This document shows, one piece after another, positions 21,162 through 32,780 of a DNA stretch of 64,000 bases (position 1 is its first letter; each line of letters starts with the position of its first letter). The stretch is from Enterobacter sp. 10-1 (GTDB lineage: Bacteria > Pseudomonadota > Gammaproteobacteria > Enterobacterales > Enterobacteriaceae): assembly GCA_002270295.1 (NCBI GenBank), contig NISF01000001.1, positions 310,001 to 374,000 on the forward strand, in the 5' to 3' direction. Under the pieces are notes generated by a model. The model was given only the letters and a program-made list of their open reading frames with translations. It was not told the DNA's origin and ran no database searches. Both the position numbers and the translations under genes were made by a program.

Positions 21162-21694
21162 AACTGTCCTGTCGAGATCGGGAGAACCGGAAGGGCGCAG
21201 TCTACGCTCCCGGCGGCGCATCGTTCCAGTGTCTATCCATGATAAAGCATGTCCATCCATGAATGATTCCCCAATGAAACCATCTCCTGCTGAATGCCAG
21301 TCCCGCCCTATCGGCTCGTGAGCAAACTGCTGGCCGCCTCTCATTTTTCGCTCGTTTATGCAGCAATGTTAGATATCTGTCAAAGTTCTGTTACTACGTG
21401 GTTTTAAAATTTTCATTTCAGTTATTTAATTATAAAAGTTTCAAATAAGTTGTTAATGAAACAAACTGACTGAAATGTGATGACCGCAAGCGTAGATGAT
21501 TAATGAACTGCTGTTTTAATAATTCATTATAAATCAACTGATTTTAGCGGTTTTTAGCGAAGGGTGAGCCGACGGCGCTGGCAGAGACGCGTGCTCTGGC
21601 CGAAGGACAGGCAGGTGTTTGCCCCGTTATTTATGAAATGAATTTTTCATTTATCTCAATAAACTGGCGTATCAACGACGCTCAAGGATCAACT
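21162..21694 (+). promoter_or_regulatory. Upstream region of the CUT2 ABC operon
   Basis: About 530 bases without a gene. The first 180 bases are upstream of the nuclease gene. The stretch 21360-21560 is AT-rich and should hold the ABC promoter. It contains a small inverted repeat around 21448-21468 (TTGTT-N4-AACAA type) that could be an operator. No regulator gene adjoins the operon. Confidence 0.4.
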
Positions 21695-22618
21695 GTGAAT
21701 ATCAAGAAAACGATTGTTGCCTCTTTGTTAGCCTGTATGTTGCCTGCGGTTGTTATGGCAAAAGATATTTCCGTCGGCGTTTCGATGGCGCTTTTTGATG
21801 ATAACTTTCTGACGATCCTGCGTACCGCAATGCAAAAAGAGATGCAAAAAGATGGCGTCAAGTCGCAGGTTGAAGACGCCAAGGGCGACGTGGCGCAGCA
21901 GCTCCAGCAGGTTCAGAACTTCATCGGCCAGGGCGTTGATGCCATCATCGTTGCCCCGGTCGACACCAACGCGGTGAAACCGATTATAGATCAGGCGACC
22001 AAAGCCGGTATTCCGCTGGTGTTCGTTAACCGTCGCCCGCAGCTGCCGCTGACGGACAAAATGGCCTACGTCGGCTCGGATTCAGTCCTCGCCGGTCGTC
22101 TGCAGATGGAAGCGCTGGCGAAGGCGATGAACGGTAAAGGAAACGTCGCGATTCTGCTGGGCGATCTGGCGAATGAATCGACCCGCGACCGCACCAGGGG
22201 CGTGGAAGAGGTGGTGGCAAAATACCCGAATATTAAAATTGTGCAAAAGCAGACCGCCAAATTCATGCGTAATGACGCGGTGGACGTGGTGAGCAACTGG
22301 ATGACCAGCGGGGAAGATATCCAGGCCATTGCGTCAAACAATGATGAAATGGCTATTGGCGCGCTGCAGGCGCTGGGCAGCAATCCAAACCATATTCTGA
22401 TCGCCGGCGTTGACGGCACCCCCGACGCGCTGCAGATGCTCAAAAACGGCAAGATGATCGCCACGATTTTCCAGGACGCGAAAGGTCAGGGTGAAGGCGC
22501 GGTCAACGCCGCCATCAAGCTGGCTAACGGTGAGAAAGTAGAAAAATTCATCGACGTCCCTTACCAGCTGATTACCAAAGAAAACATGTCTGATTTCGTC
22601 AGCCGCAACCAAAAATAA
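21695..22618 (+). CDS. Sugar-type ABC periplasmic binding protein (CUT2, RbsB/inositol-like)
   Basis: A 307-residue periplasmic binding protein of type I fold. The signal peptide is NIKKTIVASLLACMLPAVVMA. The mature part shows the RbsB-like pattern: VGVSMALFDDNFL, GVDAIIVAPVDTNA, IPLVFVNRRP and IAGVDGTPDALQMLK. I chose the GTG at 21695 because AAGGAT lies 8 bases upstream and it starts the signal peptide directly. It is the first gene of a three-gene CUT2 importer. The ligand is probably a pyranose, inositol or a related polyol; the sequence does not decide it. Confidence 0.85.
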   Translation: MNIKKTIVASLLACMLPAVVMAKDISVGVSMALFDDNFLTILRTAMQKEMQKDGVKSQVEDAKGDVAQQLQQVQNFIGQGVDAIIVAPVDTNAVKPIIDQATKAGIPLVFVNRRPQLPLTDKMAYVGSDSVLAGRLQMEALAKAMNGKGNVAILLGDLANESTRDRTRGVEEVVAKYPNIKIVQKQTAKFMRNDAVDVVSNWMTSGEDIQAIASNNDEMAIGALQALGSNPNHILIAGVDGTPDALQMLKNGKMIATIFQDAKGQGEGAVNAAIKLANGEKVEKFIDVPYQLITKENMSDFVSRNQK

Positions 22619-22651
22619 CCATTCCAGGCCCAGCGGTACGGAGGTTGATGT

Positions 22652-24136
22652 ATGAACGCTTTTGCCCTAGAAGCCGAAGGTATCAGCAAGTTCTTTCCCG
22701 GCGTGAAGGCGCTCGATAATGTCTCATTACGCGTGCGCCCGGGAACGGTGCACGCGCTGATGGGCGAAAATGGGGCCGGTAAATCCACGCTAATGAAATG
22801 CCTTATCGGGATTTACCGGCCCGATAAGGGCGCAATAAGAGTCAAAGGCCAGCCGGTTCAGTTTCAGGACACGATGGATGCGCTGCGATCGGGGATCTCG
22901 ATGATCCACCAGGAGCTTAATCTGGTGCCGCATATGACGGTGGCGGAAAATATCTGGCTGGGCCGCGAGCCGATGAAGTATGGCTTTGTCGATCATCGCC
23001 AGCTGATTAGCCAGACCCAGGCGCTGCTGAATAAACTCAATATTCGCCTCGCTGCCGATCGGCTGGTGGGCGATCTTAGCATCGCCGCCCAGCAGATGGT
23101 CGAAATTGCCAAAGCGGTCTCGTGGAACGCCGATATCGTCATTATGGATGAGCCGACCTCGGCATTAACCGAAGGGGAGGTCGCGCACCTGTTTACGATT
23201 ATTCGCGACCTCCGCGCGCAGGGTAAAGCCATCATCTATATCAGCCATAAGATGGATGAGATTTTTGCTATCACCGATGAAGTCAGCGTCTTTCGCGACG
23301 GCAGCTGGGTGGACAGTAAACAGACGGCGGAGTACACCCGCCAGTCGTTAATTACCCAGATGGTCGGGCGTGAATTAACCCAGCTGTTCCCAAAATTCAA
23401 TAATACGATTGGGGAGGATGTCCTGAGCGTGCGGAATCTGTCGCGAAAGGGCTATTTCGATGACATCAGCTTCAGCGTGCGTCGCGGCGAAATCCTCGGC
23501 GTTGCCGGGCTGGTCGGGGCCGGACGCAGCGAAGTGATGGAGTGTCTGTTCGGCATGGAGAGCTTTGACGACGGAGAGGTCCTGATTGATGGCGTCCCGG
23601 TGAAGATCGATTCTCCTTCCGTGGCCATCGAAAAAGGGATGGCGCTGCTGACCGAGGATCGTAAAAAGTCAGGCCTGTTCCTCGTCCTGTCGGTGCTGGA
23701 GAATATGAGCATCGTCAATATGCCGGAATATGTCGGCAAAAGCGGGTTCGTGAAACATATGAAAATGGCGGAAGACTGTATGGCGCAGATCCGCCGCCTG
23801 AATATAAAAACTCCGACGATGGATCAAATTATTAATAACCTCAGCGGCGGTAATCAGCAAAAAGTACTGATTGCCCGCTGGCTCTTAGCCCAGCCCAAAA
23901 TATTAATTCTCGATGAGCCGACCCGCGGTATTGATGTGGGAGCGAAGGCTGAAATTTACCATCTGATTAGCGAACTGGCGAACCGTGGCGTCGCGGTGAT
24001 TATGGTTTCTTCTGAACTACCGGAAATTCTCGGGATGAGTGACCGCGTGATGGTCATGCACGAAGGGCGTATTACCGGCATCCTTGAAAAAGATGAGGCC
24101 GATCAGGAAACCATTTTGTCGCTGGCATCCAATTGA
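22652..24136 (+). CDS. CUT2 sugar ABC transporter ATPase (two nucleotide-binding domains)
   Basis: A 494-residue tandem ABC ATPase of the RbsA/MglA class. The first domain has Walker A GENGAGKST (about residues 37-45) and Walker B with VIMDEPTSAL. The second has the degenerate Walker A GLVGAGRSE typical of this class, signature LSGGNQQK and Walker B ILDEPTRGID. It energises import through the membrane partner encoded 10 bases downstream. The start ATG follows GGAGG. No sugar kinase or catabolic gene adjoins, so the substrate must feed a pathway encoded elsewhere. Confidence 0.93.
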   Translation: MNAFALEAEGISKFFPGVKALDNVSLRVRPGTVHALMGENGAGKSTLMKCLIGIYRPDKGAIRVKGQPVQFQDTMDALRSGISMIHQELNLVPHMTVAENIWLGREPMKYGFVDHRQLISQTQALLNKLNIRLAADRLVGDLSIAAQQMVEIAKAVSWNADIVIMDEPTSALTEGEVAHLFTIIRDLRAQGKAIIYISHKMDEIFAITDEVSVFRDGSWVDSKQTAEYTRQSLITQMVGRELTQLFPKFNNTIGEDVLSVRNLSRKGYFDDISFSVRRGEILGVAGLVGAGRSEVMECLFGMESFDDGEVLIDGVPVKIDSPSVAIEKGMALLTEDRKKSGLFLVLSVLENMSIVNMPEYVGKSGFVKHMKMAEDCMAQIRRLNIKTPTMDQIINNLSGGNQQKVLIARWLLAQPKILILDEPTRGIDVGAKAEIYHLISELANRGVAVIMVSSELPEILGMSDRVMVMHEGRITGILEKDEADQETILSLASN

Positions 24137-24146
24137 GGCGTAGAGA

Positions 24147-25178
24147 ATGAGCAATATGAAATTGACCGCAGCTCCCGTAAATGAGAAACCCTCTTTCTTT
24201 CGTCATCTGCGGCATAAAATGCCGAAAGATACCGGGATATTTATCGTCATGGTGGTGATTGCCCTGACTTTTGAAATTGCCGGCTGGTTCGTTCGCGACC
24301 AATCATTTTTAATGAATAGCAACCGCCTGGTGCTGATTGTTTTACAGGTGGCAATTATCGGTATTATCGCCGTTGGGGTGACTCAGGTGATTATTACCAC
24401 CGGGATTGACCTCTCCTCCGGTTCGGTTATCGCCCTTGCGGCGGTGGTGGCGGCGAGCCTGGCGCAGACCTCGGACAGCCTGACGCCGATGTTTCCGTCG
24501 CTGGTCAACCTGCCGGCGGCGATCCCCGTTTTGGCCGGGATCGGCGTCGGCCTGCTCTGCGGATTGACCAACGGTTTTCTGGTGACCCGCACCGGGATCC
24601 CGCCGTTTATCGCCACCCTCGGGATGATGGTCTCCGCCCGCGGTCTCGCGCAGTATTACACCCAGGGCAACCCGATTAGCTTCCTGTCCGACAGCTTTAC
24701 CGCCGTGGGGCAGGGGGCGATGCCGGTCATTATTTTCTTTGTGATCGCCGCGCTGTTCCATGTCGCGCTAAAGCATACCCGCTACGGTAAATACGTCTAC
24801 GCCATCGGCGGCAACATGACCTCGGCGAAAGTTTCCGGCATCAACGTCAACAAGTATCTGGTTATCGTTTATACCATTGCCGGCGCGCTCTCCGGCCTCG
24901 CCGGCGTGGTGCTGGCGGCGCGCGTCAGCAGCGGCCAGTCGAGCATGGGGATGTCCTATGAGCTGGATGCCATTGCCGCCGCGGTGATCGGCGGCAGCAG
25001 CCTGATGGGCGGCGTCGGGCGGATTACCGGAACGCTGATAGGGGCGGTGATCCTGGGGCTGATTAAAAGCGGCTTCACCTTCGTCGGGGTGGATGCCTAC
25101 GTGCAGGATATTATTAAAGGCATCATTATCGTGGCCGCGGTGACCATCGATATGCGCCGCAACCGTAAAAAAAACTAG
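24147..25178 (+). CDS. CUT2 sugar ABC transporter permease
   Basis: A 343-residue inner-membrane permease of the RbsC family with about eight to ten hydrophobic helices. TTGIDLSSGSVIALAA, GLLCGLTNGFLVTRTGIPPFIATLGMM and GGSSLMGGVGRITGTLIGA are the usual signature regions; the last carries the EAA-like coupling segment. It would work as a homodimer with the tandem ATPase. It is the last gene of the operon and is followed directly by a hairpin. Confidence 0.92.
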   Translation: MSNMKLTAAPVNEKPSFFRHLRHKMPKDTGIFIVMVVIALTFEIAGWFVRDQSFLMNSNRLVLIVLQVAIIGIIAVGVTQVIITTGIDLSSGSVIALAAVVAASLAQTSDSLTPMFPSLVNLPAAIPVLAGIGVGLLCGLTNGFLVTRTGIPPFIATLGMMVSARGLAQYYTQGNPISFLSDSFTAVGQGAMPVIIFFVIAALFHVALKHTRYGKYVYAIGGNMTSAKVSGINVNKYLVIVYTIAGALSGLAGVVLAARVSSGQSSMGMSYELDAIAAAVIGGSSLMGGVGRITGTLIGAVILGLIKSGFTFVGVDAYVQDIIKGIIIVAAVTIDMRRNRKKN

Positions 25179-25186
25179 GTTTTAAA

Positions 25187-25207
25187 AATGGCCCGCCGCG
25201 GGCCATT
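25187..25207. terminator. Bidirectional terminator between convergent operons
   Basis: AATGGCCCG and CGGGCCATT form a perfect 9-bp stem with a 3-base loop, flanked by TTTTAAA on the left and GGTTTT on the right. It separates the ABC operon from the convergent carbamoylase gene. Confidence 0.75.
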
Positions 25208-25226: not shown

Positions 25227-26453
25227 CTACGCCTCGTTTGCCGCCAGCAGCAGGCTGTGCAGCAGGACGTTGGCCCCTTTTTCGGCCCAGGCGGGCAGAA
25301 TATTTTCGGCCTCATTATGGCTAATCCCCTTCTCGCAGGGGATAAATATCATGCTGGCGGGGGCTACCTTGCTGATATAGCAGGTATCGTGCCCGGCGCC
25401 GGAAACCATCCGTTTAGCGCTGTAGCCGAGCGCCTGGGCGGCCCGCTCGCTGCGCGCCAGGCAGTTGGGATCGAAGGCGATGGGCGCGTAGTCAAAAATG
25501 CGCTCGACCTCTGCCGTCACGCCGCGCTGGCCCAGCGCCGCGGCGGCGCGGCGCAGCGCGAGCTCCATCGCTTCGAGGGCGTCGCTTTGCGGATGGCGAA
25601 ACTCGACGCTGCACTCCACGCGGCCGGGCACCACGTTGCGCGAACCCGGCGTCACCTGCACGGTGCCGACCGTCGCGCGGCCGTCTGGCTGGTGGGCAAG
25701 ACCGATCTCTTCCACCGCCAGCGCCAGCTCGGCAAAAGCGGTTAGCGCATCGCGACGGCTGCCCATCGGCGTGGTGCCGGCGTGCGCGGCGAAACCGGTC
25801 AGGCTGACGTTGAACCAGCGCTGGCCCATTGCCGCGTGCACGAGGCCGATATCAATTCCTTCGTCTTCCAGAATCGGCCCCTGTTCGATATGCACCTCGT
25901 AGCAGGCGTGCAGGGGAAATGCGGCCGTCGGGTGCTGGCCGCGATAGCCGATAGCCTCCAGCGCCGCGCCGACGCTGACGCCGGTGCGATCTTCGCGGGC
26001 AAGGGCCCACTCTTCGCTGAACTGCCCGGCCCACACGCCGGAGGCGAGCATCGCCGGGGCAAAGCGCGCGCCCTCTTCGTTGGTCCAGTTCACCAGCACG
26101 ATATCGCGCTCGGTTTCGCTGCCGCGTTCGTTAAGCGCCCGCAGCGCCTCCAGCCCCGCCAGTACGCCGTAGATACCGTCATAGCGGCCGCCCAGCGGCT
26201 GGGAGTCGACGTGCGAACCGGTCAGCACCGGCGCCAGCGCCGGGTTTTTACCCGCCCGGCGGATAAACATATTGCCCATGCTATCGACCCGGTAGCCAAA
26301 TCCCGCCTCCTGCGCCCAGTCGCGCAGCAGATCCCGGGCCTGGCGGTCCTCTTCGCTCAGCGTCAGCCGGGTGACGCCGCCGGCGGGCGTCGCGCCGATG
26401 GTCGCCATTGCGTTAAGCGTTGCCCACAGGCGCTCGCCGTTGACGGTTATCAT
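25227..26453 (-). CDS. Zn-dependent N-carbamoyl-amino-acid hydrolase (M20/hydantoinase-carbamoylase type)
   Basis: A 408-residue metallohydrolase of the M20 family branch that contains N-carbamoyl-L-amino-acid hydrolase, beta-ureidopropionase and allantoate amidohydrolase. Metal-binding motifs are GSHVDSQPLGGRYDG (about 78-92), NEEGARF (about 125), EVHIEQGP and the C-terminal GAGHDT and GISHNEAE. It splits a ureido group into amine, CO2 and ammonia. Its ATG overlaps the stop of the ATC-hydrolase gene (ATGA), so they are coupled. In Pseudomonas an ATC hydrolase and an N-carbamoyl-L-cysteine hydrolase act in sequence to make cysteine; the same pair is proposed here. Confidence 0.85.
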   Translation of the reverse strand: MITVNGERLWATLNAMATIGATPAGGVTRLTLSEEDRQARDLLRDWAQEAGFGYRVDSMGNMFIRRAGKNPALAPVLTGSHVDSQPLGGRYDGIYGVLAGLEALRALNERGSETERDIVLVNWTNEEGARFAPAMLASGVWAGQFSEEWALAREDRTGVSVGAALEAIGYRGQHPTAAFPLHACYEVHIEQGPILEDEGIDIGLVHAAMGQRWFNVSLTGFAAHAGTTPMGSRRDALTAFAELALAVEEIGLAHQPDGRATVGTVQVTPGSRNVVPGRVECSVEFRHPQSDALEAMELALRRAAAALGQRGVTAEVERIFDYAPIAFDPNCLARSERAAQALGYSAKRMVSGAGHDTCYISKVAPASMIFIPCEKGISHNEAENILPAWAEKGANVLLHSLLLAANEA

Positions 26454-26932
26454 GATGGGTCCTTCTTTACGCGATAGCGGAAATCACAGCACGGCGCGCC
26501 CTGCATAATGGTCGTCGTGCGGGTCAGCTCAACCTCCGGCGCATAGCCGACGATAAACTTGTCATCGCGGGCGCAGGAGAGCAGGTGGCCAATCTCGCCG
26601 AGGCCCATCTGGTGATACATTTCGGCATAGCGGCAGCGGTTAACGTTGTAGTTGTACTGCCGATCGTCGGCATCCAGCACGGTGACCTCCAGCGCGTTGT
26701 CCTTTTCCCACAGATACTGCAGGGCGATAAAGCTCTGTATATCCGCGCCGTTGGGCTCTTTGGCGGCGAAGGTTTTCCCCGCCTCAATGGCGGCGTTTTC
26801 AATCGCCTCGCCGATGACCGCCTGGGCGCGAGCTTTGCCAATCTCGCGGACCAGGATGTCGTAAATCGGCTTAATAATCTCTGCTTCAATTTTGCGGCGG
26901 GCGAGAATGCCCAGCTCATTATTGTCACTCAT
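26450..26932 (-). CDS. ATC hydrolase family protein (2-aminothiazoline-4-carboxylate ring opening)
   Basis: A 160-residue protein that I assign to the L-2-amino-thiazoline-4-carboxylic acid hydrolase family. The visible family features are an N-terminal helical part with ARRKIEAEIIKPIYDIL, a central NVNRCRYAEMYHQMGLGEIGHLLSC segment with conserved Cys, and a C-terminal GAPCCDFRYRVKK with a Cys pair. Such enzymes open a cyclic substrate to an N-carbamoyl amino acid. The next gene encodes the enzyme for that product. I chose ATG 26932 because GAGG lies 8 bases upstream; a GTG directly before it is possible. Specificity for the thiazoline is inferred from the family name and neighbour, not proven. 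Confidence 0.75.
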   Translation of the reverse strand: MSDNNELGILARRKIEAEIIKPIYDILVREIGKARAQAVIGEAIENAAIEAGKTFAAKEPNGADIQSFIALQYLWEKDNALEVTVLDADDRQYNYNVNRCRYAEMYHQMGLGEIGHLLSCARDDKFIVGYAPEVELTRTTTIMQGAPCCDFRYRVKKDPS

Positions 26933-26949
26933 CACGTTGCCTCACTGCG

Positions 26950-28107
26950 TTACTTCGTGGCGCCGCCGCCGAGTACGGTTTGCGGCTGCCATTTACCGTC
27001 GACGACTTTGTAGACGGTAAAGGTTGGCGACTTCAGGTTGCCCTCTTTATCAAAGGCGATCTGCCCGGTGACGCCTGAGTAGCTGATGGCGCGCAGGGCG
27101 GGCAGGTAGACGGCCGGATCGACGGAGTCGGCTTTTTCCATCGCCGCGACCAGCACGCGCGTAGCGTCGTAGGCGAACGGCGCGTGCAGCTCGATATGGG
27201 TGTGATAGCGCGACTGATAGGCCTGCTCAAAGGCCTTGCCGCCCGGCATCTGCTCTACCGGCAGCCCCGGCTCCAGCGCCACCACGCCGTTGCCCTCTTT
27301 TTGCGCCAACTGCAGGAAGGTCTGGCTGACGAAGCCGCCTGCGCCCATCAGGGTGGCGCTGAGCCCCAGCTGCTTGATGCGGCGCGCCAGCGGTGCGGCC
27401 TGGCTGTCGACGCCGCCGAAGAAGATCAGATCGGCGTTTTTGCTGCGAATCGCCGTCAGCACGGCGCTGAAGTCCACCGTTTTGTCATCGACGTACTGGC
27501 GATCGACGATATCGATCCCCTGGGCCTTCAGCGACTTAATAAACTCATCCGCCAGGCCCTGGCCGAAGGCGGTGCGATCGTCGATCACCGCAATGCGTTT
27601 GGCCTTCAGGGTCTGCACCGCGTACTGGCCGGCAAACTGGCCGCCGTCATCGTCATGGCCCATCACCCGGAAGCTGGTATCGAAGCCCTGTTTGGTATAC
27701 GCATGACCGGTCGCCACAGGCGCAACCTGGGCGATCCCTGCGTCGTGATAGACCCGCGCCGCCGGAATGCTGGTGCCGGTATTCCAGTGGCCGACCACGC
27801 CCGCCACGCCGCTATCCACCAGGCGCTGAGCCACGGCTACCGCGGTGCGCGGGTCAGACTGGTCGTCTTCTGATTGCAGCTTAAAGGTTACCGCCTTGCC
27901 GCCGATCGTCGGGTGCTGCTTGTTGATATCGTCAATGGCCAGCCGGGCGCCGTTTTCCAGGTCCTTGCCGATACGCGCGGAAGGGCCGGTTAGCGGGCCG
28001 GCAAGGCCGATAGTGACGGTTTCGCCGGCGGCGGACCATGCGGCGGTTGAGGCAAAACCGCTGAGCACAATAGCGGCGCTGAGCGCACTGATTTTTGCTG
28101 TTTTCAT
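26950..28107 (-). CDS. Branched-chain-amino-acid-type ABC binding protein (LivJ-like)
   Basis: A 385-residue periplasmic binding protein with a signal peptide (KISALSAAIVLSGFASTAAWS) and a type I Leu/Ile/Val-type fold. GLAGPLTGPSARIGKDLENGARLAIDDIN is the standard N-terminal motif, and VVGHWNTGTSIPAARVY and VIDDRTAFGQGL follow as in LivJ. It belongs with the LivHMGF-like genes on the same strand and with the ATC hydrolase gene only 17 bases away, so its ligand is likely the substrate of that pathway rather than leucine. Confidence 0.9.
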   Translation of the reverse strand: MKTAKISALSAAIVLSGFASTAAWSAAGETVTIGLAGPLTGPSARIGKDLENGARLAIDDINKQHPTIGGKAVTFKLQSEDDQSDPRTAVAVAQRLVDSGVAGVVGHWNTGTSIPAARVYHDAGIAQVAPVATGHAYTKQGFDTSFRVMGHDDDGGQFAGQYAVQTLKAKRIAVIDDRTAFGQGLADEFIKSLKAQGIDIVDRQYVDDKTVDFSAVLTAIRSKNADLIFFGGVDSQAAPLARRIKQLGLSATLMGAGGFVSQTFLQLAQKEGNGVVALEPGLPVEQMPGGKAFEQAYQSRYHTHIELHAPFAYDATRVLVAAMEKADSVDPAVYLPALRAISYSGVTGQIAFDKEGNLKSPTFTVYKVVDGKWQPQTVLGGGATK

Positions 28108-28134
28108 TGTTTTTCCCTGATGTTGGTTGGTGTG

Positions 28135-28854
28135 TTAAACGGGCATTTCGCCCAAATAAATCTGTGCAATGCGGTCGTCGGCCAGCAGCGCCTGCGATGC
28201 GCCGCGCTCAACGATGCTGCCGCTGTCCATCACCCACGCGCTGTCGGTGGCCTCCAGCGCCAGGCGCGCGTTCTGCTCAATGAGCAGCAGCGCCACGCCG
28301 CGCTGGCGCAGGGTGGCAATAACGCGAAAAACATTCTCCACCATCAGCGGCGCCAGCCCCATCGACGGCTCGTCGAGGATCAGCAATCGCGGGCGGCTGA
28401 GCAGGGCGCGGTTCAGCGCCAGCAGCTGCTGTTCGCCGCCGGAGAGCAGCCCGGCCAGCTGATGCTGGCGCTCGCCGAGGCGGGGAAACTGGCTGAAGAT
28501 GTCGTCCATCTCCCGCTTAACCGCCGCGCCGTCGCGGCGCAGCCAGGCGCCCATCTGCAGATTTTCCAGCACCGTCATGCGGGCGAAAATGCCGCGGCCT
28601 TCCGGCACCATCACCAGCCCTTCACGCAGCAGCGTTTCGGCCCGGCGTTTGCGTACCGGCCTGCCGTTGAAGAAGATGTCGCCGCTAAACGGCTCCAGGC
28701 CGGTAACGGCGCGGACGGTGGAGCTTTTGCCCGCGCCGTTGGCGCCGATAAGCGTCGTCTGCTCGCCCTCCTGGACGCTAAACGACACCTCGCGTACCGC
28801 CTGGATGCCGCCGTAGTGCACCCCAAGACCGCTGACGGTTAACAGATCAGACAT
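28135..28854 (-). CDS. LivF-like ABC transporter ATPase
   Basis: A 239-residue ABC ATPase of the LivF class. Walker A is GANGAGKSS (about residues 36-44), followed by VPEGRGIFARMTVLENL, the signature LSGGEQQ and Walker B LLILDEPSMGLAP. It pairs with the LivG-like ATPase. I chose ATG 28854, eight bases after GGAGG; the start overlaps the 3' end of the LivG-like gene by 8 bases. A longer frame to 28938 lies wholly inside that gene and is not used. Confidence 0.92.
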   Translation of the reverse strand: MSDLLTVSGLGVHYGGIQAVREVSFSVQEGEQTTLIGANGAGKSSTVRAVTGLEPFSGDIFFNGRPVRKRRAETLLREGLVMVPEGRGIFARMTVLENLQMGAWLRRDGAAVKREMDDIFSQFPRLGERQHQLAGLLSGGEQQLLALNRALLSRPRLLILDEPSMGLAPLMVENVFRVIATLRQRGVALLLIEQNARLALEATDSAWVMDSGSIVERGASQALLADDRIAQIYLGEMPV

Positions 28855-29614
28855 GCGCATTTCCTCCCAGCCAGGCGGCGATAACCGCCGGGTCGCGACG
28901 TACGGTTTCAGGCGTGCCGCTGGCCAGCGTTTTGCCATAGTCCAGCACCATCAGGCGATCGCAGATCCCCATCACCAGCTTGACGTCATGCTCAATCATC
29001 AGCAGCGTTTTGCCGTCGTTACGGATGCGCAGCAGCAGCTCGCCAAGCGCCACTTTTTCCGCGGCATTCATCCCGGCGGCCGGCTCATCCAGCGCCAGCA
29101 GACGCGGATCGGTAGCCAGCGCGCGGGCAATCTCCAGACGCCGCTGGTGGCCGTAGGCGAGGTCGCAGGCGCGGTAGTGGGCGAACTGCGCGATGCCGGC
29201 ATACTCCAGCCAGTGCCACGCCAGCTCGCGGGTTTGCGCCTCTTCGGCGCGGGCGCGGCGGTGGCGGCTCAGCGCCGCCCACAGGCCGTTGCGGGTACGT
29301 ACGTGGCGGCCGACCATCACGTTTTCCAGCACCGACATCTGGTTAAACAGCCGCACGTTCTGGAAGGTGCGGGCGATACCGGCGGCGGTGACTTTCTCAA
29401 TGTTCTTCGGGAAGTAGGGCTGACCGGCAATGGCGAACTCGCCGCTGTCCGCCGGATAGAGCCCGGTTATCAGGTTAAAGCAGGTAGTTTTACCCGCCCC
29501 GTTGGGGCCGATAAGACCGTAGATTTCGCCCTCGTTGATGGTGAGCGAGACGTTATCGACCGCCGTCAGGCCGCCGAAGCGCTTTGACATATGGCTGACG
29601 CTTAGCAGGCTCAT
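28847..29614 (-). CDS. LivG-like ABC transporter ATPase
   Basis: A 255-residue ABC ATPase of the LivG class with Walker A GPNGAGKTT (about residues 36-44), the class-specific GIARTFQNVRLF Q-loop region, YGHQRRLEIARAL as signature and LALDEPAAGMN as Walker B. The degenerate signature is normal for LivG. It overlaps the upstream LivM-like gene by 4 bases. Confidence 0.93.
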   Translation of the reverse strand: MSLLSVSHMSKRFGGLTAVDNVSLTINEGEIYGLIGPNGAGKTTCFNLITGLYPADSGEFAIAGQPYFPKNIEKVTAAGIARTFQNVRLFNQMSVLENVMVGRHVRTRNGLWAALSRHRRARAEEAQTRELAWHWLEYAGIAQFAHYRACDLAYGHQRRLEIARALATDPRLLALDEPAAGMNAAEKVALGELLLRIRNDGKTLLMIEHDVKLVMGICDRLMVLDYGKTLASGTPETVRRDPAVIAAWLGGNAHV

Positions 29615-30720
29615 GCTTTGGCTCCTTTATGTCCGGCGGGCCAGATGCCCTGCGGGCGCAGCAGCATCACCAGCACCAGCGCCAGGCCGTAGAACAGCTG
29701 GCGCAGAATTTCCGGGTCAATCAGCACTTCGCCAAACAGCGCCTGCTGCAGCGGGGCGGCCTGGCTGCGCAGCAGCTCGGGCAGGGCGGTCAGCAGCACG
29801 GCGCCGAGGATAACGCCTGGGATATGCCCCATTCCGCCGAGCACCACCATCGCCAGGACCGCAATCGACTCCTGCAGGGTGAAGGATTCGGGGGAGACAA
29901 AGCCCTGGAATGCGCCGAACAGCGCCCCAGCGACGCCGCCGAACGACGCGCCGATGGCGAACGCCAGCAGCTTATAGTTACGCAGATTAATGCCCATCGC
30001 CCGGGCAACGTCCTCATCCTCACGGATGGCGTGCCAGGCGCGGCCGATCCGCGAGTGCTGCAGGCGCAGGCAGACGAAAATAATCGCCACAATCACCAGC
30101 ATTAGCAGGTAGTACCACAGCCACAGCGCCGGAACCTTAACGCCGAACCAGTGATAGACGCCGCTGAATTTAAGACCAAACAGGCTGAGCGTATCGATGC
30201 CGGAAATGCCCTTTGCGCCGTTGGTAATATTCACCGGGCGATCGAGGTTGCGCATCAGAATGCGGATAATCTCGCCAAAACCGAGCGTGACAATGGCCAG
30301 GTAGTCGCCGCGCAGCTTGAGGGTCGGCGCCCCCAGCACGATGCCGCAGCCCGCCGCCACCAGCGCGGCGAACGGAATAATCAGCAGCCAGGAGGTGTGC
30401 AGGCCGTCCGGGAACCAGGCCAGCAGCTGCGGGAACGCCTCCAGCAGATGCGGGGAGGCCAGCAGCGCCGCCAGGTACGCGCCGACGGCGTAAAAGGCGA
30501 TAAAGCCCATATCCAGCAGGCCGGTGTAGCCGACCACGATGTTGAGACCCAGCGCCAGCATGATGTACAGCAGGGCGAAGTCGATGACCCGCACCCAGTA
30601 GTTGCCGCCGAGCTGGCTGGCGACCATCGGCGCCACCAGCAGCGCGCAGATAAACAGGGTCATGCCGGACCAGAAGCGACGGGAGGCGGCGGGGGCCGCG
30701 ACGAGTTGTGCCGTTGTCAT
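29611..30720 (-). CDS. LivM-like ABC transporter permease
   Basis: A 369-residue inner-membrane permease of the LivM class with about eight to ten membrane helices. GLNIVVGYTGLLDMGFIAFYAVGAY is the strongly conserved N-terminal motif and ALGFGEIIRIL-like sequence (VTLGFGEIIRILMRN) the coupling helix. It forms the membrane pore with the LivH-like protein encoded directly upstream. Confidence 0.93.
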   Translation of the reverse strand: MTTAQLVAAPAASRRFWSGMTLFICALLVAPMVASQLGGNYWVRVIDFALLYIMLALGLNIVVGYTGLLDMGFIAFYAVGAYLAALLASPHLLEAFPQLLAWFPDGLHTSWLLIIPFAALVAAGCGIVLGAPTLKLRGDYLAIVTLGFGEIIRILMRNLDRPVNITNGAKGISGIDTLSLFGLKFSGVYHWFGVKVPALWLWYYLLMLVIVAIIFVCLRLQHSRIGRAWHAIREDEDVARAMGINLRNYKLLAFAIGASFGGVAGALFGAFQGFVSPESFTLQESIAVLAMVVLGGMGHIPGVILGAVLLTALPELLRSQAAPLQQALFGEVLIDPEILRQLFYGLALVLVMLLRPQGIWPAGHKGAKA

Positions 30721-30728
30721 ATTTTTTC

Positions 30729-31679
30729 CTATGCCCGATGCGCGACGCGCTCGCCGAGTAAACCGGCGGGACGGAACACCAGCACCACAATCAGCACCAT
30801 AAAGGCGAAAATATCCTGATAGTTGCTGCCGAAGACGCCGTGGGTCAGGTCGCCGAGATAGCCGGCGCCCAGCGATTCGATGATCCCCAGCAGCAGGCCG
30901 CCGAGCATCGCGCCGCGAATATTGCCGATGCCACCGAGTACCGCCGCGGTGAAGGCCTTAATGCCGGGGAGAAAACCCATTGAGAAGCTGGCGCTGCCGT
31001 AGTTGCTGGCCATCATGACGCCCGCCAGCGCCGCAAAAGCGCCGCCAATCGCGAAGGTGAGGGTGATAATGGCGTTGGGGTTCACCCCCATCAGCGTGGC
31101 GATGCGCGGGTTCTCCGCCACCGCGCGCATGCCGCGGCCTAAGCGGGTAAATTCCACCAGCAGCCACAGGCCGAGCATGACCGCAAAAGCCAGCGCAACG
31201 GTGACGATGCCGGTCACGGTGACGATCGCCGGCGGATGCGCTTCGCTGCCGTGGGTAATGGCGATCGGCTCCATCGGCAGGATCTGCGGGAACATCTGCG
31301 GGTTGCGGGTCCAGATAATCATCGCCGCGGTTTGCAGCAGCACCGATACGCCGATCCCCGAGATCAGCGGCGCCAGGCGCGGAGCGTTGCGCAGGCGGCG
31401 GTAGGCAAAGCGCTCAACCGCCATCGCCAGCAGCGCGCATACAGCCATAGCCAGCATCAGCGCCAGGATCAGCTGGGCCAGCGGCGGCAGGTTGGGAAAA
31501 TGGGCGTTCAGCGCGTTCATTGCCGACAGCGTCGTCAGCGCGCCGATCATCAGAATATCGCCGTGGGCAAAGTTAATGATGCGCAGGATGCCGTACACCA
31601 TGGTGTAGCCGAGCGCGATAAGGGCATAGATGCTTCCCAGCATGATCCCATTGATGAATTGTTGTATGAGTGTGTCCAA
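30729..31679 (-). CDS. LivH-like ABC transporter permease
   Basis: A 316-residue inner-membrane permease of the LivH class. The N-terminal QQFINGIMLGSIYALIALGYTMVYGILRIINFAHGDI motif region is typical, as is GFLPGIKAFTAAVLGGIGNIRGAMLGG near the C-terminus. It is the first gene of the operon LivH-LivM-LivG-LivF-LivJ-ATC hydrolase-carbamoylase, about 6.4 kb on one strand, and lies opposite the LysR regulator. Confidence 0.93.
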   Translation of the reverse strand: MDTLIQQFINGIMLGSIYALIALGYTMVYGILRIINFAHGDILMIGALTTLSAMNALNAHFPNLPPLAQLILALMLAMAVCALLAMAVERFAYRRLRNAPRLAPLISGIGVSVLLQTAAMIIWTRNPQMFPQILPMEPIAITHGSEAHPPAIVTVTGIVTVALAFAVMLGLWLLVEFTRLGRGMRAVAENPRIATLMGVNPNAIITLTFAIGGAFAALAGVMMASNYGSASFSMGFLPGIKAFTAAVLGGIGNIRGAMLGGLLLGIIESLGAGYLGDLTHGVFGSNYQDIFAFMVLIVVLVFRPAGLLGERVAHRA

Positions 31680-31850
31680 CCGAGTTACCCGACAATTTGC
31701 TCAAATTACGGCTACCATCCAATAAATGAATTAAATTGTAAAATACGGATATATTCTTTCTTATTATGAACGCGAATTTATCTATATTTATGATATTTAA
31801 TATAATTAAATACCGTATCGGATCTCATTTAGCGCTAAGAAAATCAATAT
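31680..31850. promoter_or_regulatory. Divergent promoter region, LIV-type operon and LysR gene
   Basis: 171 bases, very rich in A+T from 31720 to 31850, between divergent genes. Such LysR-operon layouts usually carry the regulator's own binding site. No specific box was assigned. Confidence 0.5.
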
Positions 31851-32780
31851 ATGAAAAAAACAGAACAGTCAGCGGAGCGGGAAGTATGGACGGAAAGCGG
31901 CCTGGTCAACGATCCGCCGCTGCGGGCAGTGCGCGCATTTGAAGCTATCGCCCGTCTCGGCAGCATCACCCTGGCCGCCCGGGAGCTGGCGATATCGCCG
32001 TCGGCGGTCAGTCATCAGCTGAAGGTGCTGGAAGGATACCTGCAGATCCCGCTCACCGAGCGGCAGGGGCGACGGCTGACCCTCAGCCTGCAGGGGCGCG
32101 AATACTACCGCTCCATTCGCGCGGCGTTTAACGTTCTGCGCCAGGCCACCGAGCATCTGGTCGATCAGGTCCAGAGCCAGCAGGTGACGATCAGCCTGAT
32201 CCCGCTGTTTGGCATGGGCTGGTTTATTCCTCGCCTGCCGTCATTTGTCCACGCCAACCCGCAGACCGAAATCAATGTGGTTTACGCCAACCACCGTAAC
32301 TACCTCAGCGACGCCTCGGATATGTCGATTCGCTTCGGCAACGGGCAGTGGGCGGGATATCAGAGTGAAAAGCTGATTTCCGGCCGAATGGTGGCGGTGT
32401 GCAGCCGGGCGTTTATCCGCCTGCACGGGCATATTGATACGCCGGAGCAACTGCTGCAGATGCCGCTGCTTCATGACGAGGAGCGCAGCACCTGGAACCA
32501 GTGGTTTGTGCAGCAGGGGGTGAGGCGCCCGCCGCGATCGACGGGGCCGCTGTTCGAGGACGGGCTGTTAACCCTCGCCGGCGTGCAGGCCGGGCTGGGC
32601 TGCGCGCTGATGCGCGAACCGCTGATCGCGCCGTACCTCAACAGCGGCGAGCTGGTGAAAATCTTCGACGCGGCGATCGATGACGGCCGGGATTACTATC
32701 TGTGCGTGCGCCAGGACAGCGAAATGACGCCTAACGGCAGGCTGCTGCAGAGCTGGCTGCGCAGCGAGGCGCTGGGATAG
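31851..32780 (+). CDS. LysR-type regulator, GcvA-like
   Basis: A 309-residue LysR-type regulator. After a 23-residue N-terminal extension the helix-turn-helix reads RAFEAIARLGSITLAARELAISPSAVSHQLKVLE, as in the GcvA group (the GcvA-type P-x-L-x-A-x-x-x-F-E start is seen as PPLRAVRAFEAIA). The effector domain contains ISLIPLFGMGWFIPRLPSF and VYANHRNYLS. It is divergent from the LIV-type transporter/ATC-hydrolase operon and is its likely regulator, probably responding to the transported compound or its product. Confidence 0.9.
   Translation: MKKTEQSAEREVWTESGLVNDPPLRAVRAFEAIARLGSITLAARELAISPSAVSHQLKVLEGYLQIPLTERQGRRLTLSLQGREYYRSIRAAFNVLRQATEHLVDQVQSQQVTISLIPLFGMGWFIPRLPSFVHANPQTEINVVYANHRNYLSDASDMSIRFGNGQWAGYQSEKLISGRMVAVCSRAFIRLHGHIDTPEQLLQMPLLHDEERSTWNQWFVQQGVRRPPRSTGPLFEDGLLTLAGVQAGLGCALMREPLIAPYLNSGELVKIFDAAIDDGRDYYLCVRQDSEMTPNGRLLQSWLRSEALG

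Follow-up and report, generated by a model that had tools for sequence, protein, structure and literature searches.

A candidate operon for the uptake and hydrolysis of 2-aminothiazoline-4-carboxylate in Enterobacter sp. 10-1

What might an importer of the branched-chain amino-acid (LIV) type carry when its genes run into those for a putative 2-aminothiazoline-4-carboxylate (ATC) hydrolase and an N-carbamoyl-amino-acid hydrolase? The question is raised by a 64,000 nt stretch of the Enterobacter sp. 10-1 genome (contig NISF01000001.1, positions 310,001 to 374,000; here called the window), in which seven intact open reading frames (ORFs) occupy positions 25227-31679 of the minus strand. Read from right to left (31679 to 25227), these are livH, livM, livG, livF, livJ, the gene for a PF14196-family ATC hydrolase (atc) and the gene for an M20-family carbamoylase (hyuC), and a lysR gene diverges from them. 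By family, the transport genes make up a complete LIV-type ATP-binding cassette (ABC) importer, with one periplasmic receptor, two permeases and two ATPases. An original prediction had proposed a dedicated importer combined with the two hydrolases, with cysteine as the likely product. Our comparisons support this proposal through a glycine (Gly257) at a key site of the receptor and through cysteine desulfhydrase-like genes in related clusters.

We consider it fairly likely that the operon takes up L-ATC or a close analogue, opens the ring and decarbamoylates the product to cysteine. Specifically, the LysR protein would control an operon for the uptake and degradation of ATC or a very close analogue. 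The carboxylate of the ring compound would be gripped by the LivJ-like protein, whose pocket lacks the usual acid for an alpha-ammonium group, and LivHMGF would pump the compound into the cell. There the PF14196 enzyme would open the ring to give N-carbamoyl-L-cysteine, from which the M20 enzyme would take off the carbamoyl group to yield L-cysteine, CO2 and ammonia, with a gain to the cell of sulfur, nitrogen and carbon. In this scheme we infer the ligand, the direction of transport, the inducer of the LysR protein and the occurrence of both reactions in this organism.

That the genes belong together is evident from their conservation. One genome per species was scanned with the ATC hydrolase, which yielded 72 loci; the nearest of these to the hydrolase of the window is from Raoultella terrigena NBRC 14941 (98% identity). 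Fifty-three of the loci (L009-L061) are from Enterobacteriaceae, Erwiniaceae, Yersiniaceae or unclassified Enterobacterales, and by tblastn the order lysR, livH, livM, livG, livF, livJ, atc, hyuC is kept in 52 of them, with livM and hyuC in pieces in L028. Only L043 (Pantoea coffeiphila) departs from this: it combines lysR, atc and hyuC with a different importer, and its lysR adjoins atc. A stricter count, which took the longest non-overlapping ORFs only and therefore gives lower figures than tblastn, found the individual genes in 39 to 51 of the 53 loci. Genes of the window outside the unit were matched in 0-9 of the 53, a test valid for nearer neighbours because the fetched loci span about 10 kb per side. 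The eight genes form a unit, and the predicted arrangement of seven overlapping genes in one direction with a divergent lysR is confirmed.

The same unit is found on a conjugative plasmid of Kosakonia cowanii and on a plasmid of Pantoea dispersa. Among 394 sampled genomes of the order, 16 have PF14196 matches (E <= 0.001), 13 of them over the family cut-off, and the distribution is thus patchy; a megablast of Escherichia coli genomes gave no match. The cassette is real, widespread and partly plasmid-borne.

The nature of the ligand can be approached through the binding protein, whose closest solved relatives are 3ip5 (best PDB match, 9.8e-55), 4n0q and 1usg. We take 3ip5 to be Atu2422, a LIV-family receptor with specificity for gamma-aminobutyrate (GABA) and proline. 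In leucine- and LIV-binding proteins, the carboxylate of the ligand is held by Ser79 and Thr102 and the ammonium group by Glu226. On alignment to the three structures, Thr110 and Thr133 of the window protein fall at the carboxylate sites of the leucine-binding protein (LBP) and Gly257 falls at Glu226, where 1usg, 3ip5 and 4n0q all keep an acid. All 68 operon-linked binding proteins examined have glycine at this position (53/53 enterobacterial including that of the window, 2/2 plasmid, 3/3 Burkholderia-type and 10/10 from a probable Pseudomonas genus, the last ten being read from a motif and L192 standing outside the count). Thr110 and Thr133 are kept in all 58 proteins for which both were tabulated, and the tabulated rows carry Asp234 at the position of LBP Tyr203. 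Paralogues from the same genome (L107-L109) keep Asp or Glu at the ammonium site; L105 and L110, in which the poorly aligned column reads Phe and Cys, were left out of this comparison, and the alignment does not extend to another four PF13458 matches in the genome (L111-L114).

Since the ammonium-binding acid is lost and the carboxylate-binding hydroxyls are kept, a ligand with a carboxylate and no free alpha-amine, such as ATC, would fit. A carboxylate site without an ammonium site, together with a displaced acid, would suit either ATC, with its carboxylate and distal amidine, or an N-carbamoyl amino acid. With Gly257 found in all 68, the protein is, as far as sequence tells, neither an ordinary branched-chain amino-acid receptor nor specific for such ligands. 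In four Burkholderia-type loci (L137, L142, L144, L192), lysR, livJ, atc and hyuC lie together in fetched stretches that contain no close livHMGF homologues. This persistence of livJ beside atc and hyuC ties the binding protein to both enzymes.

Both enzymes score over the cut-offs of their families. The PF14196 match covers positions 1-145 of the 145-position profile, and the M20 enzyme exceeds the cut-offs of TIGR01879 (204) and NF006769 (452; scores in Table 1). We take GSHxDS, GxxDG, EEG, HIEQG and SHNE to be the M20 metal-site and catalytic motifs, and in 65 or 66 of 66 rows these motifs keep their His, Asp and Glu. The nearest solved M20 proteins (4wjb, 5thw, 5i4m) are named only as amidohydrolase, deacylase or amidase.

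Cysteine is the likely product, judging from the genes that accompany related clusters. In two loci of the probable Pseudomonas genus (L177, L178), the protein encoded directly after hyuC matches the NCBIfam model for L-cysteine desulfhydrase Cds1 with 546.8 and 555.5 bits (next best model 134.4 and 136.2). The order in Shinella (L193) is atc, M20 gene, Cds1-like gene (569.3 bits), and in Azospirillum (L199), a more distant relative, a Cds1-like gene (533.2 bits) is close to a PF14196/LIV cluster whose M20 gene is of another subfamily. For all four proteins the next best model scores 143.7 bits or less. Because these genes sit in related clusters, they give independent support to cysteine as the product. 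The genome of the window has a Cds1 homologue of its own (554.2 bits), unlinked and about 193 kb away on the same contig.

A second association concerns racemases. At least seven of the 27 loci whose importers were classed as 'other' have a gene of the racemase superfamily within or next to the cluster (L043, L138 in two pieces, L191, L177, L178, L146 and L197), a count in which L138 and L191 are both Sinorhizobium meliloti and L177 and L178 share a genus. On pSymA of S. meliloti R28 the order is lysR, racemase gene, atc, M20 gene. The EutA-like members score below the EutA cut-off. A review, in the portions available to us, names an ATC racemase with no gene named for it there, and reports both N-carbamoyl and S-carbamoyl cysteine as intermediates (PMC10821248). 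The cluster-linked genes of the EutA/Asp-Glu racemase family are concrete candidates for this ATC racemase.

Several observations weigh against the proposed pathway or narrow it. All four linked Cds1 matches fall under the 600-bit cut-off, and 'Cds1-like' is therefore the proper name. The L177 and L178 clusters are relatives and not the same operon, their atc and hyuC products being 54-57% and 45-46% identical to those of the window. The LIV-type operons themselves showed neither a Cds1-like nor a racemase gene beside them, the racemase homologue of L047 being about 7 kb off. Since some PF14196 genes (L071, L078, L140) stand without this carbamoylase, the family may not be confined to a single substrate. 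Finally, the one fused importer whose receptor was aligned (L068, SBP_bac_3 type) appears to keep the usual Arg and Asp of amino-acid receptors; a missing ammonium site is thus no general mark of ATC-linked receptors, and the idea that both importer types had lost it failed on this protein.

Of the other explanations, the one that survives best, unlikely as we judge it, is that the operon mainly supplies nitrogen, by taking up and hydrolyzing free N-carbamoyl-L-amino acids or a sulfur-free analogue (a cyclic ureide, hydantoin, or 2-amino-imidazoline or -oxazoline carboxylate). The M20 enzyme does belong to a broad family of carbamoylases and allantoate amidohydrolases, the altered binding site would fit any N-blocked amino acid, and an Azospirillum PF14196 gene lies near genes for urea carboxylase and allophanate hydrolase. 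However, urea, allantoate and ErtE-type systems were rejected because the cut-offs of their models are missed: 36.5 against 492.75 bits for UrtA with the receptor, and for the M20 enzyme 239.1 against 597.75 for the allantoate amidohydrolase AllC (TIGR03176) and 340.3 against 520 for the N-carbamyl-L-glutamate amidohydrolase ErtE (NF058540). The Cds1-like genes also point to cysteine instead, and a simple pattern search found no sigma-54-like site in the lysR-livH gap, on which ground sigma-54 control was dropped. The 'cyclic ureide' half of the original title is left without specific support.

It is far less probable that the operon serves detoxification, by removing a harmful thiazoline or cyanide adduct and not for the gain of cysteine. 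ATC does arise from cyanide and cystine, according to the parts of two articles available to us (PMC9291117, PMC10575699). An importer, however, would make little sense if destruction were the only aim, and related clusters hold a gene for the further use of cysteine. Least credible of all, and rejected, is an ordinary branched-chain amino-acid importer lying by chance beside two unrelated enzymes: all five transport proteins do belong to LIV-type families, but they score under the cut-offs of the LivJ, LivF, LivG, LivM and LivH models (Table 1), the genome has other LivJ/LivK-like proteins (L107-L109), the ammonium acid is lost in all 68 receptors examined, and the gene order is conserved across families, with the receptor staying beside the enzymes where the permeases are absent.

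The enzymes of the pathway that we favor also appear beside other importers. In 13 of the other 19 loci (L062-L070, L072, L074, L078, L079; Neisseriaceae, Pasteurellaceae, Orbaceae, Apibacter and Wohlfahrtiimonas), a fused SBP_bac_3-permease-ATPase importer is encoded directly upstream of atc. The fused architecture was established by Pfam for L062 and L066 and by 57-80% identity to L068 for the remainder, with the importer of L063 cut by a contig end and that of L074 a 541-residue ORF; L075, where the importer is not fused, was not counted. A single protein of receptor, permease and ATPase is an unusual architecture. L062, L063 and L066 continue with genes that resemble a methionine ABC importer.

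The gene after atc is hyuC in 12 of these 19 loci (L062-L080). In Wohlfahrtiimonas (L078:10483-11601; L073:10441-10890), the carbamoylase is replaced by a 372-aa protein that matches CMD over a short stretch (29.4 bits, cut-off 23), which suggests another fate for the ring-opened product. Elsewhere, the importer of L043 has an NMT1-type receptor, a major facilitator superfamily (MFS) protein lies beside the cluster in L177 and L178, and LIV-type systems, as annotated, stand beside PF14196 in Martelella and Azospirillum. A further variant linked to an importer is found on two Roseobacter-group plasmids (L194, L195). There an M20 aminoacylase comes after PF14196, and ahead of PF14196 lie an ABC importer that looks dipeptide-type and two enzymes annotated as a class V aminotransferase and an FAD oxidoreductase.

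On a hydrolase tree of 109 sequences, 7 changes among four importer classes are required, compared with 39.7 in shuffles, where the classes were assigned by hand, 'other' is a catch-all (it includes L143, on a 5.4-kb contig) and several long branches have unsure placements. One group (100/98) holds the thirteen fused rows plus two others; another, less firm (87/87), holds the 65 LIV rows plus two others. L043 lies inside the LIV group and is a case of importer exchange. Non-homologous importers thus replace the LIV one beside the same enzymes.

The original prediction had implied that an importer distinguishes this locus from the classical Pseudomonas genes, a contrast that falls once the genus of genome G1044 is considered. 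A 16S primer that we take to be Pseudomonas-selective matches 7 of 8 tested genomes of this genus and 0 of 4 others, and the genus is very probably Pseudomonas. Strong, near-full-length ATC hydrolase matches occur in 21 of its 249 sampled genomes, and two further matches are short and weak. Twelve of the 21 strong-match loci were fetched, and the whole unit of lysR, LIV genes, atc and hyuC is present in 10 of them. The cassette of the window may well be a relative of the classical Pseudomonas ATC genes. A separate locus labeled Pseudomonas stutzeri NCTC11607 (L070) has the same neighbor genes as Haemophilus parainfluenzae L068 and a similar ATC hydrolase, and is probably mislabeled.

A search of the PDB with the hydrolase sequence gave no match up to E 1. 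An AlphaFold2 model, built from 36 sequences, has a mean predicted local distance difference test score (pLDDT) of 91.1, and Cys100, Cys120 and Cys149 are invariant in the 36-sequence alignment. By Foldseek the model is nearest to the PoxR/MopR phenol sensors and Bet3 (best E 2.6e-5, probability 1.00, TM-score about 0.5). VIA-align gave Z scores of 9.8 for a Bet3-type TRAPP chain and 8.1-8.7 for phenol sensors, with H-NOX and a V4R protein at about 6-7; the top matches reached Z 9.8 at a root-mean-square deviation of 4.5, and values below about 8 can reflect a common arrangement. The predicted structure may resemble the PoxR/Bet3/H-NOX folds. A sequence-profile kinship to XylR_N was rejected (hhalign E 0.12), and common descent with the sensor folds is therefore unproven. 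Phenol sensors bind zinc near the ligand via cysteines, and by analogy a metal site in the ATC hydrolase is possible.

The features of the operon are collected in Table 1. ATGA overlaps join livM to livG and atc to hyuC, and livF, starting at ATG 28860 or 28854, overlaps the livG stop. Pfam and NCBIfam assign BPD_transp_2 twice (LivM- and LivH-like proteins) and ABC_tran twice (LivG- and LivF-like proteins). The LysR gene scores 244 bits with the NCBIfam GcvA model, below its cut-off of 288. Scans for promoters and terminators in the region did not rise above shuffles (7 terminator-like sites against a shuffle mean of 6.1). The genes converging on the operon (21638-25178, plus strand) look like a ribose-type sugar ABC cassette; matched in only 9 of the 53 relatives, this cassette was rejected as a part of the system.

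Table 1. The operon and adjoining features, with positions in the window and scores in bits.
Feature	Position	Strand	Evidence
LivH-like permease, TTG start, 316 aa	30729..31679	-	PF02653 165.3; LivH equivalog PRK10740 221.7, below 379 cut-off
LivM-like permease, 369 aa	29611..30720	-	PF02653 170.3; PRK11301 268.6, cut-off 366
LivG-like ATPase, 255 aa	28847..29614	-	ABC_tran and BCA_ABC_TP_C; PRK11300 279.7, cut-off 362
LivF-like ATPase	28135..28860	-	ABC_tran 100.9; PRK11614 222.2, cut-off 441
LivJ-like periplasmic binding protein, 385 aa	26950..28107	-	PF13458 (Peripla_BP_6) 209.1; PRK15404 (LivJ/LivK) 223.1, cut-off 477
ATC hydrolase homologue (AtcB-like), 160 aa	26450..26932	-	PF14196 146.6, gathering cut-off 28.1
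M20 N-carbamoyl-L-amino-acid hydrolase (AtcC/HyuC-like), 408 aa	25227..26453	-	TIGR01879 401.9; NF006769 586.9
LysR-family regulator (GcvA-like), 309 aa, divergent	31851..32780	+	HTH_1 and LysR_substrate (Pfam)
lysR-livH gap, divergent promoter region	31680..31850		Partly conserved in alignment
Possible shared terminator hairpin of hyuC and the convergent sugar-type ABC genes	25187..25207		Hairpin scan

The 6.1-Mb genome of the window also carries a second, distant PF14196 gene (G000:C34:337558-337956, 52 bits). In its operon (L115:5387-10544), what look like an ABC ATPase and permease are joined by an SBP_bac_3 receptor, PF14196, a Glyoxalase_3 protein and an apparent ProC-like reductase; a gene resembling gamma-glutamyltransferase lies divergent to them. 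This operon is perhaps for a related ring compound, such as a glutathione-cyanide product.

Where such bacteria would meet ATC is a further question. The compound is known mainly as a marker of cyanide exposure and as an industrial intermediate, and to our knowledge the natural role of ATC hydrolase is unsettled. The cassette hosts Frischella, Apibacter and Wohlfahrtiimonas presumably come from bees and flies, which is compatible with a link to cyanide and is no proof of one. In the available portions of two articles, ATC is found in urine, blood and tissues, and its occurrence in plants is said not to have been analyzed (PMC10575699, PMC9291117).

A broader picture can be offered only tentatively. 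ATC might be a common natural nutrient, formed mainly by cystine that scavenges cyanide in plants, insects and animals. The enzyme pair would circulate in proteobacteria and some Bacteroidota (Apibacter) with exchangeable importers (LIV-type, fused polar-amino-acid-type, NMT1-type, MFS) and optional racemase and Cds1-like genes, and the ring-opening enzyme would be a PoxR/Bet3/H-NOX-like sensor-type fold turned hydrolase, with three conserved cysteines. If the favored pathway for the operon is right, a dedicated uptake system for the cyanide-cystine product is present in strains of the Klebsiella oxytoca group, Raoultella, Enterobacter, Serratia, Pantoea and probably Pseudomonas, and the natural role of ATC hydrolase becomes directly testable. 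A sensor for ATC, and so for cyanide exposure, might also be built on the binding protein.

Compared with known systems, the importer shares with LIV-I/LS the full set of LivJ, H, M, G and F homologues and the hydroxyls of the carboxylate site. It differs in the glycine that replaces the ammonium-binding acid and in Ile, Phe, Val and His at the positions of LBP Trp18, Tyr150, Tyr202 and Tyr276. Even Atu2422, the best PDB match of the receptor, has Asp where the window protein has Gly257. The possible structural neighbors of the hydrolase model, PoxR/MopR, TRAPP Bet3 and H-NOX, are sensors or trafficking proteins, whereas the window protein is a putative enzyme. In the accessible parts of the open-licence literature on ATC hydrolase, N-carbamoyl-cysteine, ATC racemase and thiazoline/cyanide, we met no report of an ATC import operon. 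The closest counterpart is the Pseudomonas ATC pathway, reportedly described by Shiba and colleagues in 2002, with AtcB as L-ATC hydrolase and AtcC as N-carbamoyl-L-cysteine amidohydrolase. That pathway reportedly uses the same families (PF14196 and M20 carbamoylase) in the same order, but the published work is reported to cover the two enzymes, with no importer or LysR protein in the accounts available to us. The enzymes are of a known kind, and what the present locus and its relatives add is the coupling to an importer, the lost ammonium site, the association with Cds1-like and racemase-family genes, and a predicted fold.

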